A DNA stretch of 61,541 bases from Thermoproteota archaeon (GTDB lineage Archaea > Thermoproteota > Thermoprotei_A > EX4484-217-1 > JAPDJV01). How positions within the stretch are numbered: position 1 is the stretch's first letter; the number at the start of each line of letters is the position of its first letter. The notes beneath the pieces were generated by a model. It worked only from the letters and a program-made list of their open reading frames with translations. It ran no database searches and was not told the DNA's origin. Below, piece after piece: positions 38,772 to 43,204 of the stretch. Location: NCBI GenBank assembly GCA_029258925.1, contig JAPDJV010000036.1, positions 1-61,541 of the forward strand, written 5' to 3'. The translations under genes and the position numbers were made by a program.

Positions 38772-39863
38772 CTATCTTGTTATGCGGGTCCCCCTTAATT
38801 CCTCTAGTAGCCTCCTAGCCTCCGGGTTTTCAGTGAAGTACTTTCTAATTGGGGAAAGATATTTTATTAATGCTTCTGCTGTAGAGTTTTTTAAGTCTAA
38901 GGGATGTATCTTACCCGTGCTATACAGTTTTTCGAGTTCATGATAAGAGTTAACCAATAGTGTTCCACCATATTTCTCCGGTCTATTTATAGTAAGGTTG
39001 AAGTCTTCTCTACTAAACAATATGTACTTATTTATTTCCATTATCGGGTTTCCATCAACTACTTTGGGTGGACAGAATGCTTTCAGTATTTTAGCCCTAA
39101 TTTCCTCTGGTCCATCGTGTACGAATATCGCTGTCTCGGGCTTCGACTTACTCATCTTAGCCTCGATCAGAGGCTGCTCTCCTAAATAATCCATCCTACT
39201 CGATCCCTGAAGCCCTGTTAGCAGGGGGATGTGTATGGCTATGGGCTTCTTGAAATGTAGTTTCTCTGCAACATCTCTTGCCAGTACATGAGCTTTCCTC
39301 TGATCCATCCCACCTAGAGCTATGTCCACATTTAGATAGAATATGTCCGCCACCTGCATTACAGGATATATCAGCTTCGAGAAATCCATCACACCTTCCT
39401 CTTCTCTCCTACCCATTATTGTAAGCGCTCTCTTAACTCTAGAAAGAGTAGAGCTCTTAGCTATTTTTAGAACAAGCCTCCAGTACTCAGAGTCCGATAC
39501 AACATCTTCCGCATCAATTATTGTAAGCTTATCTACATCGACTCCCAGAGCTCTAAGACAATGTTCCACGTACTTACTGCACCTTTTGATGGCCTCCATA
39601 TCTCCCCCTAATTTATCGTTTATCCAAGCATGCCATGTTGCCTCTAGTAGAACCATTTTAAAACCTACGTCAATAAGATCCTGAAGCTTCATGGCCCATA
39701 TTATCCATCCTATGTGGAACATACCGCTAGGCTCGAATCCTATGTACCCCCTAACCTCACCGCTCCTGGAGTTCACAATATCCTTAAGTTCGCTTAACGT
39801 AATTATCTCTGAAGTGTTCCTAACAATCCTCTTTATAGCGATATCTGTATCCGAGGTTATCAA
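38772..39863 (-). CDS. tyrS: Tyrosyl-tRNA synthetase
   Basis: Class I aminoacyl-tRNA synthetase. The HIGH-type sequence appears as FHIGWI and the KMSKS loop as AKMSKSKPE. Tyr-binding segments YIGFEPSG and MQVADIF are present. 363 residues, archaeal/eukaryotic type. TTG 39863 is the likely start, with a TATA-like TGTTTAACA about 26 bases upstream (leaderless). First gene of a tyrS-dnaG operon. Confidence 0.92.
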   Translation of the reverse strand: MITSDTDIAIKRIVRNTSEIITLSELKDIVNSRSGEVRGYIGFEPSGMFHIGWIIWAMKLQDLIDVGFKMVLLEATWHAWINDKLGGDMEAIKRCSKYVEHCLRALGVDVDKLTIIDAEDVVSDSEYWRLVLKIAKSSTLSRVKRALTIMGRREEEGVMDFSKLIYPVMQVADIFYLNVDIALGGMDQRKAHVLARDVAEKLHFKKPIAIHIPLLTGLQGSSRMDYLGEQPLIEAKMSKSKPETAIFVHDGPEEIRAKILKAFCPPKVVDGNPIMEINKYILFSREDFNLTINRPEKYGGTLLVNSYHELEKLYSTGKIHPLDLKNSTAEALIKYLSPIRKYFTENPEARRLLEELRGTRITR

Positions 39864-39911: not shown

Positions 39912-40020
39912 TAGGCCCGCTGCTGTCCCCCACTGCTAACACCCGGTTTCACAGGGAGATCTACGTCTCTCTCCAGCCGGGCTCTCTCCCAGTGGGAGCG
40001 GGGTTGTCGCAGCGGGCCTA
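39912..40020. ncRNA. Rod-shaped palindromic RNA or small element of unknown kind
   Basis: Four nested helices fold the stretch into one rod: TAGGCCCGCTG (39912-39922) with CAGCGGGCCTA (40010-40020); CCCACTG (39929-39935) with CAGTGGG (39990-39996); CCCGG (39942-39946) with CCGGG (39977-39981); GGAGA (39955-39959) with TCTCC (39970-39974). It lies between pheT and tyrS in a GC-poor gap. A TATA-like run (about 40036-40043) is suitably placed for minus-strand transcription from about 40018. It matches no RNA family I know; a MITE-like insert is the alternative. Confidence 0.6.
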
Positions 40021-40050
40021 CTAATCATAGTGTAGGCAGCAATTAAAATA

Positions 40051-41712
40051 TTATTCCTTCCATAAACCCGATAAGTCTAATTCGAATAGTGCAACAGGGT
40101 ATTCTATATTGTATTTCTCTAATATCGACGGATGTACCTCGCCTATTATTCCTCTAGGCTCTCCATTAAGAATTATTTCCGCTGTTCTGCCGTCAATAAA
40201 GGCAGAGTGCTTATATTCTCTGAGTGCTATCCTCCAACCCATGTTCTCTGCTAATGCAAATAGTGGGGAGTGAACATCCTCCAAGCTCACGGCATATGCC
40301 AATACCCCTGCACAAAGCCTAAGCGTATAGTTAATCCTATTCTCTCTATCTAGGAATGCAGTTATACCTGTCTCGAATATTTTGATCGGGTGCTCTTTAT
40401 ACTGGTTTTCTCCGAGAACCCTCAATGCTATTGGCAAAAGCCTTGCCCTCAAACAACTCATGTAGCTCACTACAGGATTCTCTAATTCTATGAGTTTCAC
40501 ACCTTCAGCGTCCTCTAAGAATTCGAGTTGATCCTCAGGTGAGGAAAGCATGTATGTTAAGATCTCTTGGAAACCTAGTCCGACCATGAGGTTTCTTACG
40601 GCTCTCAGAAAAGCTGTTTTCCTAAGCTCTCTTCCAGTAGTGTATATTGTTGGGAGCTCTATGGGTATCTCGTTGTAACCCATGGAGATTGCCATATCCT
40701 CTATTACATCTATTTTATGCAGTATGTCATATCTGTATGGGGGAGCCTCTGCTTCAACCATTCCACTACTGATGCTAACATCGTATCTGGCTCTCAACAG
40801 TAAGTCAACAACGGTCTCCGGGGACAATTCTACTCCTATGACTCTCTCCGCTTCCGCAATACTGAATACTGTCTTCGATGTTTGAAGCAGTGGAGTTCTA
40901 ATGGTTCTCTGACCACTACATATTTCAACTCTGCCTATCCTCCTACCAGCGCTCTCAGCAATGGTTGTTGCCACCAGGTCGAGGGCCCTATACACTGCCG
41001 CCTCATCAATTCCAGTTATATCTATGAAGAGGTTTTTGGTGCCCGGCTCGACTCTAGTTAAATCACTATTTATTATCGGGGGCATAGCAATTATGTCCCC
41101 CGTTTCCTCTACAACGATTACTGGTGCCATGTTGTGAGCCCTGATTATCCAACCATATTCTCTCCCCTTCTCGTGTTTTACAAGTATCTCCCTACCAGTC
41201 ATAACTCTCGTTTCATATAGGGGTTTAAACGAGAACTCATCTAAACCCATAGCTTTGTATATCAATTTCCTGCCACGTATTACGTCGTAGTTGTGTATTC
41301 CTATTGCGATCTTCTTTCTCCCCCTACCTAGAGTTGTATGTATCTTCTCCTGTAGCTGTATTATCTCCTCAAGCATGTACTCGTCGATGTGTACACCGCG
41401 TATAACCGCTGTTGCAATATAAGGTCTAACCTTTCTCACACTACTGTGAACTTCTAGCTTAAGGCCTGAATCGTATGTTTCGTACTTTGGCATCCCAAGT
41501 TCTAATCCTAAGAGGCCCCTGACCACTCTAGCTATGCCCTCGCTCATAAGCATGTCTAGTCTATCGTTTGTTACCTCCACTTCAATGTACTCGTCATCCA
41601 ATGGACTGACCTCACACTTGGTTCTGAAGAAAATATCTTCGAATTCCTCATCGGCTAGCTTTAATCCAATAATCTCTTCCAGCCTCTTCCTACACAATCT
41701 GATTACCGGCAC
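40051..41712 (-). CDS. pheT: Phenylalanyl-tRNA synthetase beta subunit
   Basis: Beta subunit of the (alpha-beta)2 PheRS, archaeal/eukaryotic type (no EMAP/OB N-terminal extension). B5 and core regions such as IDITGIDEAAVYRALDLVAT and MGYNEIPIELP are recognisable. The frame is open to TTG 41733, but GTG 41712 (MPVIRLCRKRLEE) matches the usual N-terminus and has GGTGAGG five bases upstream. It follows pheS by a few bases. Confidence 0.92.
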   Translation of the reverse strand: MPVIRLCRKRLEEIIGLKLADEEFEDIFFRTKCEVSPLDDEYIEVEVTNDRLDMLMSEGIARVVRGLLGLELGMPKYETYDSGLKLEVHSSVRKVRPYIATAVIRGVHIDEYMLEEIIQLQEKIHTTLGRGRKKIAIGIHNYDVIRGRKLIYKAMGLDEFSFKPLYETRVMTGREILVKHEKGREYGWIIRAHNMAPVIVVEETGDIIAMPPIINSDLTRVEPGTKNLFIDITGIDEAAVYRALDLVATTIAESAGRRIGRVEICSGQRTIRTPLLQTSKTVFSIAEAERVIGVELSPETVVDLLLRARYDVSISSGMVEAEAPPYRYDILHKIDVIEDMAISMGYNEIPIELPTIYTTGRELRKTAFLRAVRNLMVGLGFQEILTYMLSSPEDQLEFLEDAEGVKLIELENPVVSYMSCLRARLLPIALRVLGENQYKEHPIKIFETGITAFLDRENRINYTLRLCAGVLAYAVSLEDVHSPLFALAENMGWRIALREYKHSAFIDGRTAEIILNGEPRGIIGEVHPSILEKYNIEYPVALFELDLSGLWKE

Positions 41713-41719
41713 CCACGCC

Positions 41720-43204
41720 TCACCACTTGACAAGCGTTTTCCTAAGAAAGTCTATGTTTGTGCTATAGAGCTTCCTAATATCGTCTATTCCAAGAAATAG
41801 CATGGCAACTCTGTCTATTCCGATACCCCATGCTGCAACAGGATACTTTACTCCCAGAGACGCCAATACTTCCGGCCTGAACATCCCTGCTCCGAAAGCC
41901 TCAACCCAGCCTGCTTTAGGATGATTTATGTATCCTTCAACGGAGGGCTCGGTGAATGGGAAGTATCCTGGCTTAAACTTTACCTCCTCTATACCCAGTT
42001 GCTTGAAGAATTCGGCTAGGGTTCCAAGTAAGTGTTTAAAGGACAGGTTCTCCGCCATAATGATGCCGTCCAGCTGTTGGAACTCAGGTAGATGAGTGGC
42101 ATCTATTTCATCGGGTCGAAATACCTTGCCTATTGTGAATACTTTGACGGGCGGCTTAGGATTCTCCGAGAGGTATCTTGCAGTTACACATGTTGTCTGG
42201 CTTCTTAGAATGAGCCTTGTAGCAATATCCGGCCTCCACTTGTAACCCCACCCCCTAGAGCCAGTATCCCCTCCACTCTCATGTATTCTCCTAACTCTTT
42301 CAACTATGGCTTCCTCCTCTAATGTTGTCCTCCTGGGATACTTTATCCAGAACGTGTCGTGAATTTCCCTTGCAGGGTGATCTTGAGCTTGGAATAGTAC
42401 GTCAAAGTTCCAAAACTCTGATTCAACCAGTGGTCCCTCAATCTCCCTGAATCCCATTGCAATAAGAATGCTCTTAATTTTCTCCAAGAACTCTACGTAG
42501 AAGTGTTTTTTCCCGGGATAAACCGTGGGTGGGAGAGCCTTTATATTATATGGCTTTAACCTTGCTTTCCTCCACAAACCCCTCTTTATGATGTCATGTG
42601 TTATTTTGGATATTACTGGAACAGCCTTGAGCAATGCTTTGCTGACTGAGGAAGAAGCCGACACTTTCACTAATGTTCTCATAGAGATTTCTACAAGACC
42701 TCTTTTCTCAAGTTCTCTAATAACTTGGGGAATGTCTTCAGTTAATTCAAGTAAGCCTCTCCCCGTAAGTTCTTCCAGCATTCTTTCGTCGTCGCTCCTT
42801 GGAGGTTCTCTTTCAACCACTATGAAACCCTTATCTATCCTCCCCCAGCCTTTCTTCACTATCCAGCCTACACCTATACTTATCTCGTTCTCAGTGAAGC
42901 CAAGATCTCCTAGATCTCTTATCCTAAGCTTCCCACCATGCTTTAAGACCTGTAGCGCTATTCTCCTCTCAGGTACGCCTCTACTAGCATAGTCTAATCC
43001 CTCACTCGTAGGCTTAACTAGAAACTTTCTAGTTATCTCCTTGGAGACCATGCCTTTAGCGCTCAGGCTCTCGATTACAGACATTATAGTTGAGTGGGGC
43101 ATTCCAGTTTTAGACGTTAATTCCTCTATTGATAGAGGTCTCTTAGATTCTAGTAGGAGTTCTAGTATTTTCCTCTCGTTCTCTGTCAGCTCACTCATAC
43201 ACAT
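41720..43204 (-). CDS. pheS: Phenylalanyl-tRNA synthetase alpha subunit
   Basis: Catalytic subunit. An N-terminal winged-helix region (residues 1-100) precedes a class II synthetase core: motif 2 area FWNFDVLFQAQDHPAREIHD, FRPDEIDATHLPEFQQLDG, and motif 3 GIGIDRVAMLFLGIDDIR. 494 residues fits archaeal PheS. It overlaps the 3' end of the coaD-like gene by 14 bases; ATG 43204 or ATG 43198 are possible starts. Operon: MBL hydrolase, coaD, pheS, pheT. Confidence 0.92.
   Translation of the reverse strand: MCMSELTENERKILELLLESKRPLSIEELTSKTGMPHSTIMSVIESLSAKGMVSKEITRKFLVKPTSEGLDYASRGVPERRIALQVLKHGGKLRIRDLGDLGFTENEISIGVGWIVKKGWGRIDKGFIVVEREPPRSDDERMLEELTGRGLLELTEDIPQVIRELEKRGLVEISMRTLVKVSASSSVSKALLKAVPVISKITHDIIKRGLWRKARLKPYNIKALPPTVYPGKKHFYVEFLEKIKSILIAMGFREIEGPLVESEFWNFDVLFQAQDHPAREIHDTFWIKYPRRTTLEEEAIVERVRRIHESGGDTGSRGWGYKWRPDIATRLILRSQTTCVTARYLSENPKPPVKVFTIGKVFRPDEIDATHLPEFQQLDGIIMAENLSFKHLLGTLAEFFKQLGIEEVKFKPGYFPFTEPSVEGYINHPKAGWVEAFGAGMFRPEVLASLGVKYPVAAWGIGIDRVAMLFLGIDDIRKLYSTNIDFLRKTLVKW

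Follow-up and report, generated by a model that had tools for sequence, protein, structure and literature searches.

What does a 109-base inverted repeat encode when it lies between two aminoacyl-tRNA synthetase genes of an archaeon? The element was recognized by sequence inspection at positions 39912–40020 of the window, i.e., the whole stretch of 61,541 nucleotides that was analyzed, and is GC-rich relative to the flanking DNA. It belongs to a source genome of 1.75 Mb in 56 contigs, and the archaeal nature of the window is indicated by matches to archaeal SRP and 23S models in an Rfam scan. The sequence-only reading of this DNA had placed an unknown rod-like RNA or MITE-like palindrome between pheT and tyrS and had given these genes a common strand, which is correct (pheT, 40051–41733; tyrS, 38772–39863; both on the minus strand). 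From fold, covariation, and guide complementarity, we are confident in a more specific proposal: the minus strand of the element is predicted to carry the gene of an archaeal box H/ACA guide RNA that has one hairpin and is directed at the equivalent of E. coli U1921 in 23S rRNA.

The minus strand and its probable H/ACA anatomy

The palindrome is present as described and folds better than all dinucleotide shuffles on either strand (z of −4.9 on the plus and −5.1 on the minus strand; 0/200 shuffles as good in each case). Among the helices listed in the earlier reading, those of 7 bp (CCCACTG/CAGTGGG), 5 bp (CCCGG/CCGGG), and 5 bp (GGAGA/TCTCC) stand, while the outer arms, given as 11 bp, form 12 bp (TAGGCCCGCTGC / GCAGCGGGCCTA). 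A loose Rfam scan of the region returned a weak match to HgcG (Pab40, RF00064) on the minus strand, with 10.3 bits and an E-value of 0.66. This falls far short of the gathering score of 77 bits and does not place the element in RF00064, yet it was the lead to the H/ACA reading of that strand. Besides this lead, Rfam at loose E-values gave chance-level matches only over the region, and neither the window stretch nor 18 related loci gave a match to the element at gathering level. The earlier reading had rejected an H/ACA signature, which is right for the plus strand only, as the minus strand fits in every dimension measured. The predicted parts of the RNA are as follows.

39912–40020, minus strand: whole RNA gene, a predicted H/ACA guide within an outer helix (fold z −5.1; covariance match)
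40009–40020, minus strand: 5′ arm of the 12-bp outer clamp (sequence; covariation in relatives)
39999–40008, minus strand: unpaired 5′ spacer GACAACCCCG (alignments; conserved among near relatives)
39990–39998, minus strand: 5′ strand of the lower stem, 9 bp (compensatory changes in 7/9 pairs)
39983–39986, minus strand: left guide GAGA, complementary to target UCUU (alignment and target scan)
39941–39982, minus strand: upper stem, kink-turn motif, and apical stem-loop (invariant GA and UGA; covariation)
39972–39973 and 39949–39951, minus strand: GA and UGA of the kink-turn motif, respectively
39936–39940, minus strand: right guide GUUAG, complementary to target CUGAC (alignment and target scan)
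39927–39935, minus strand: 3′ strand of the lower stem (compensatory changes)
39924–39926, minus strand: ACA box, at a distance of 14 nt from the G·U pair that closes the pocket
39912–39923, minus strand: 3′ arm of the outer clamp, abutting ACA (sequence; covariation)
40043–40048, minus strand: TATA-like TTTTAA just past the pheT stop (consensus only)

H/ACA identity is very likely. Fold and covariation both give a stem–pocket–stem hairpin whose lower stem has 9 bp, within the 7–9 bp of the class, with 98.8% of cells paired. The ACA distance of 14 nt from the closing pair recurs in 82 of 90 homologues, and ACA ends 84 of the 90. The kink-turn bases GA and UGA are invariant in 7/7 aligned sequences and, by a crude check, both present in 60/90 homologues; the motif sits about 10 layers above the pocket, a count that is approximate here, as the 5′ side carries an additional base. 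Two guide strands are complementary to the sequence around UN at the 23S 1921 site, as scored on the rRNA of a relative. This geometry matches the published ‘10/5/9’ class, and published work on such RNAs describes productive archaeal guides as having ACA 14–15 nt from the pocket closing pair and a ten-layer stem (PMC4652768). The source genome also contains cbf5, whose match (L229, G000:C1:81972–82966) falls into two pieces about 29 bases apart, as expected for the cbf5 intron known in Crenarchaea (PMC2738675).

The RNA would be transcribed from the minus strand. By analogy with characterized archaeal H/ACA particles, L7Ae would bind its kink-turn, and its ACA box would be the site held by Cbf5 together with Nop10 and Gar1. 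The pocket strands GAGA and GUUAG would then pair with 23S 5′-CUGAC-[UC]-UCUU-3′ and place the E. coli U1921 equivalent (yeast 25S Ψ2264) in the active site for isomerization. The TTTTAA box, centered 25.5 nt from 40020, is a possible promoter of its own, from which transcription would begin at the clamp. In one further locus (L102), a TATA-like box is likewise centered about 25–27 nt upstream of the clamp; in two others (L034, L065), it lies only 3–5 nt upstream, so that the 5′ arm would be left untranscribed from such a promoter. Because of this unequal spacing, the RNA start is not settled by these boxes. The spacer between clamp and lower stem, GACA(A/G)CCCCG (39999–40008), is conserved even in clampless members, and a partner for it was not found.

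Homologues and the predicted 23S target

A DNA search of 41 genomes revealed convincing homologues at the same place, beside pheT and/or tyrS. In an alignment of seven core sequences (A2), made by MAFFT without structure and given a structure chosen by hand from the same sequences, 15 of 22 pairs show two-sided changes, and on all measures but one none of 500 shuffles attains what was observed, the exception being further pair types (9/500). Covariance model R1 matched 89 of the 229 genomes of the class. The element itself was matched by covariance model with 71.9 bits (E 3.9e-16), the sole such match in the window. Ninety matches from fetched loci were aligned, a few of them weak or partial (L114, L117). 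Two-sided changes were found in 18/22 pairs over 88 distinct sequences, and the covariation in related species that the sequence-only reading had proposed as a check is thus strong. Paired cells in these 88 rows amount to 94.6%, against a mean of 70.8% in shuffles and 42–54% when slid, although fitting the alignment to the covariance model favors the structure in this comparison.

A broader model, R2, gave matches in 151 of the 397 genomes that represent the phylum. Group f9 yielded no convincing member of the family, as all 13 of its genomes lacked matches at E ≤ 0.01. When named genomes were scanned with a pattern, 39 stretches were returned; 38 of them carry archaeal titles (Desulfurococcales, Pyrodictiaceae, Acidilobaceae, Thermogladius, Staphylothermus, Aeropyrum, and others), and the single bacterial one was taken as chance. 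Relatives of the RNA are widespread and seem uncatalogued, and no prior description of the family was found in the open-licence literature on Desulfurococcales H/ACA RNAs and H/ACA terminal stems. The family appears to be new, while the kind of RNA, an H/ACA guide, is already known. The earlier suggestion of a new small RNA holds in substance, since the structural RNA is conserved and covaries strongly, and fails in its unknown class, the minus strand being read as an H/ACA guide. If this is right, an old H/ACA guide across much of Thermoproteota was missed by Rfam.

The guides of the 90 matches were scored against both rRNAs, 16S and 23S, of a single relative, G029 (intron-free; G·U closing pair). 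The U1921 equivalent in 23S rRNA (E. coli numbering), next to helix 69, is the best 16S/23S site for 78 homologues; 1915 is the best for three, another site for three, and no rRNA candidate was obtained for six. Under a strict rule of five right and four left pairs, 75 of the 89 usable guides (truncated L114 left out) fit 1921, and the next site only four. When guide columns were permuted in 100 runs, the most popular site never rose above 30. The right guide is GUUAG in most members and GUCAG in others, both complementary to CUGAC. These results make the U1921 equivalent the likely target, with CUGACUCUCUU as the predicted substrate stretch. The pairing varies in length: the RNA of the source genome pairs with the target over only 9 bp, including two G-U, and some relatives reach 15–16.

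No match to the target 23S segment was obtained in the source assembly, which appears to lack this stretch. The tests of the site therefore used relatives and the rRNA of one relative; the target string was found in 5/5 of the 23S loci examined (L025–L029). The middle of the 23S gene seems to be absent from this assembly. At the start of the contig (window 1–292), 23S matches occur on both strands together with a perfect 68-base inverted repeat (1–68 / 225–292), probably an assembly fold-back. In four of these loci (L025, L026, L028, L029), 23S introns lie directly after CTCTTAA, within the guide-paired region, and longer left guides would therefore need splicing first.

The closest comparison is provided by HgcG/Pab40 (RF00064) of Pyrococcus, whose third motif, Pab40.3, is likewise an H/ACA hairpin with a kink-turn, with a similar pocket, a G·U closing pair, a right guide GUUA-, and a target a few bases off in the same 23S region. 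Pab40, however, carries several motifs per RNA, as opposed to the single hairpin here, and the published target of Pab40.3 is the E. coli 1915 equivalent instead of 1921. That target is named L2016 for Pa40.3 in passages of PMC4652768, and part of PMC2584109 equates L2016 with 1956 of Haloarcula and E. coli 1915. When the same pocket rule is applied to the 3′ motif of the HgcG consensus, it leads to GUAAC[UC]UGACC, i.e., U1915, and the pocket reading thus reproduces a known case. An assignment of this 3′ motif to Pab40.2-L1932 was considered and rejected in favor of Pab40.3-L2016.

In yeast, the H/ACA snoRNA snR3 guides the equivalent position, 25S Ψ2264, and the two RNAs, one of them a eukaryotic snoRNA, are equivalent by target only. 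A section of PMC8307265 assigns Ψ2264, in helix 69, to snR3 and marks Ψ2258 and Ψ2260 as common with E. coli; by our numbering, Ψ2264 would correspond to E. coli 1921, four bases past 1917. If the prediction is right, the target is the helix-69-side uridine that eukaryotes modify via snR3, and the sharing of a bridge modification by eukaryotes and their archaeal relatives becomes testable. Among crenarchaeal pseudouridine guides, the H/ACA-like sR201–sR210 of Pyrobaculum are set apart here by stem architecture only. The element has a full lower stem plus an extra helix outside, unlike sR203–sR210, which lack a lower stem according to passages of PMC4652768.

Weighing other explanations

The position beside tyrS invites two explanations. 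An H/ACA RNA adjoining this gene could be a guide for Ψ35 of tRNA-Tyr, resembling Sso1 and kept there for that reason; such guides are known in Sulfolobales and Aeropyrum, as passages of PMC4652768 report, and the Sso1-type guide of Sulfolobales is also a crenarchaeal single H/ACA motif with the 10/5/9 fold. Its target and guides nevertheless differ from those found here. The first right-guide base, G, would face G34 of the GUA anticodon, and with G opposite G the guides cannot pair beside U35; they fit 23S instead. Moreover, no candidate appeared in 30 of the 43 tRNA loci of the genome, a set outside which tRNA-Tyr falls, and the gene is often away from tyrS, which leaves this function very improbable. 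The same distribution bears on a cis-acting regulator or processing element of a pheT–tyrS transcript, which the earlier reading had entertained as a regulator of tyrS. The place between two synthetase genes of the same strand, kept in near relatives, would suit such a role. Yet tyrS was matched in 43/90 loci, where the RNA lies upstream on the same strand in 25 and on the opposite strand in 18, and the remaining 47 have no tyrS within the stretch examined (some stretches being short). As the conservation also obeys H/ACA rules, there is very little to recommend a regulator. In Pyrodictiaceae-like f8 genomes (L048, L052, L050, L059, and others), the RNA keeps its position between pheT and tyrS but in reversed orientation, a flip that the clamp arms, as inverted repeats, could have favored.

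The perfect terminal inverted repeats had also suggested a MITE or another insert. The proposed search of the genome for more copies was run and found no second copy, the only other match being 15 bases long (E 0.72). Between genera, the arm sequence differs while its complementarity stays, and the conserved unit is the interior guide hairpin, not the terminal repeats; a mobile insert is hardly credible on these grounds. Less remote, albeit still improbable, is an H/ACA guide acting mainly on an mRNA or some other RNA, not on 23S U1921. Guides of 9 bp match many places (20 at ≥5+4 pairs in the window alone), and passages of PMC4652768 raise extra-ribosomal targets. Only the rRNA site, however, accounts for the conservation of both guides from class to class and for a drift confined to bases that keep the pairing.

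The outer clamp and further H/ACA candidates

The guide hairpin proposed for 23S U1921 is enclosed by a helix that closes directly on ACA. At least eight contiguous pairs starting 0–3 nt past ACA occur in 26 of 90 loci, versus 2.7% when arms of different loci are combined; chance seems to account for no fewer than two of the 26 (L079, L092). In the 24 loci without a gap after ACA, which comprise 20 distinct arm pairs, three or more pair types occur at each position of the helix, and when the arms are re-dealt the paired cells fall from 160/160 to a mean of 98 and a maximum of 117. Since presence of the helix was the criterion for selecting these rows, the pairing is built in and only the pair variety counts as evidence. 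The letters vary and the complementarity is kept, which argues for base pairing and not for a protein site.

The clamp is broken by an A-rich bulge in about a dozen members of f4, some of which, by eye, hold an A-rich bulge of 3 nt, and many members (f7 and part of f4) do not have it. Guiding therefore does not need it. In a wider sample of 27 matches from the R2 phylum search (20 regions picked from its matches and six loci that it gave), at least 8 bp within 6 nt of ACA were found in 12, and guides fitting 1921 with 5+4 pairs in 17. The clamp thus recurs far outside the class, and strong covariation together with recurrence in distant classes points to a selected terminal feature. Our preferred guess is that it would protect the RNA ends at high temperature; it may also serve their maturation. 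A bolder and rather doubtful proposal is a phylum-wide H/ACA subclass whose ends are sealed by a long clamp on ACA, for excision out of longer transcripts or for high-temperature circularization, so that the guide would mature in a closed or circular form. The terminal clamp of this subclass would be comparable to the terminal stem of C/D RNAs. For circular archaeal RNAs, the open-licence literature yielded no report. A bulge–helix–bulge splicing motif in the clamp was considered and dropped, the helix here being an unbroken 12 bp. A conserved outer clamp poses the question of how archaea excise or protect their guide RNAs.

Second copies with other guides were observed in f11, where L103 (1370–1444) and L106 (1501–1581) fit 23S U1915, not U1921, as do the guides of L080 (1501–1580) in another f11 genome. 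Two f11 genomes, G034 and G133, carry both kinds of guide. A second H/ACA family appears in f8 and part of f7 (L216, L217, L223, L226), with left guide GGUCUCA and, on the right, CGGUC or a similar sequence. Judged by eye, this family fits 23S GACCG[UC]GUGAGAC, a site which we take to lie near E. coli 2593. In L204 (6–88), a second H/ACA-like hairpin lies immediately upstream of the clamped one, and similar upstream letters with GGGACACGG are seen in several of L202, L205, L208–L210, and L212. Pairs of the L204 type are possibly tandem H/ACA RNAs.
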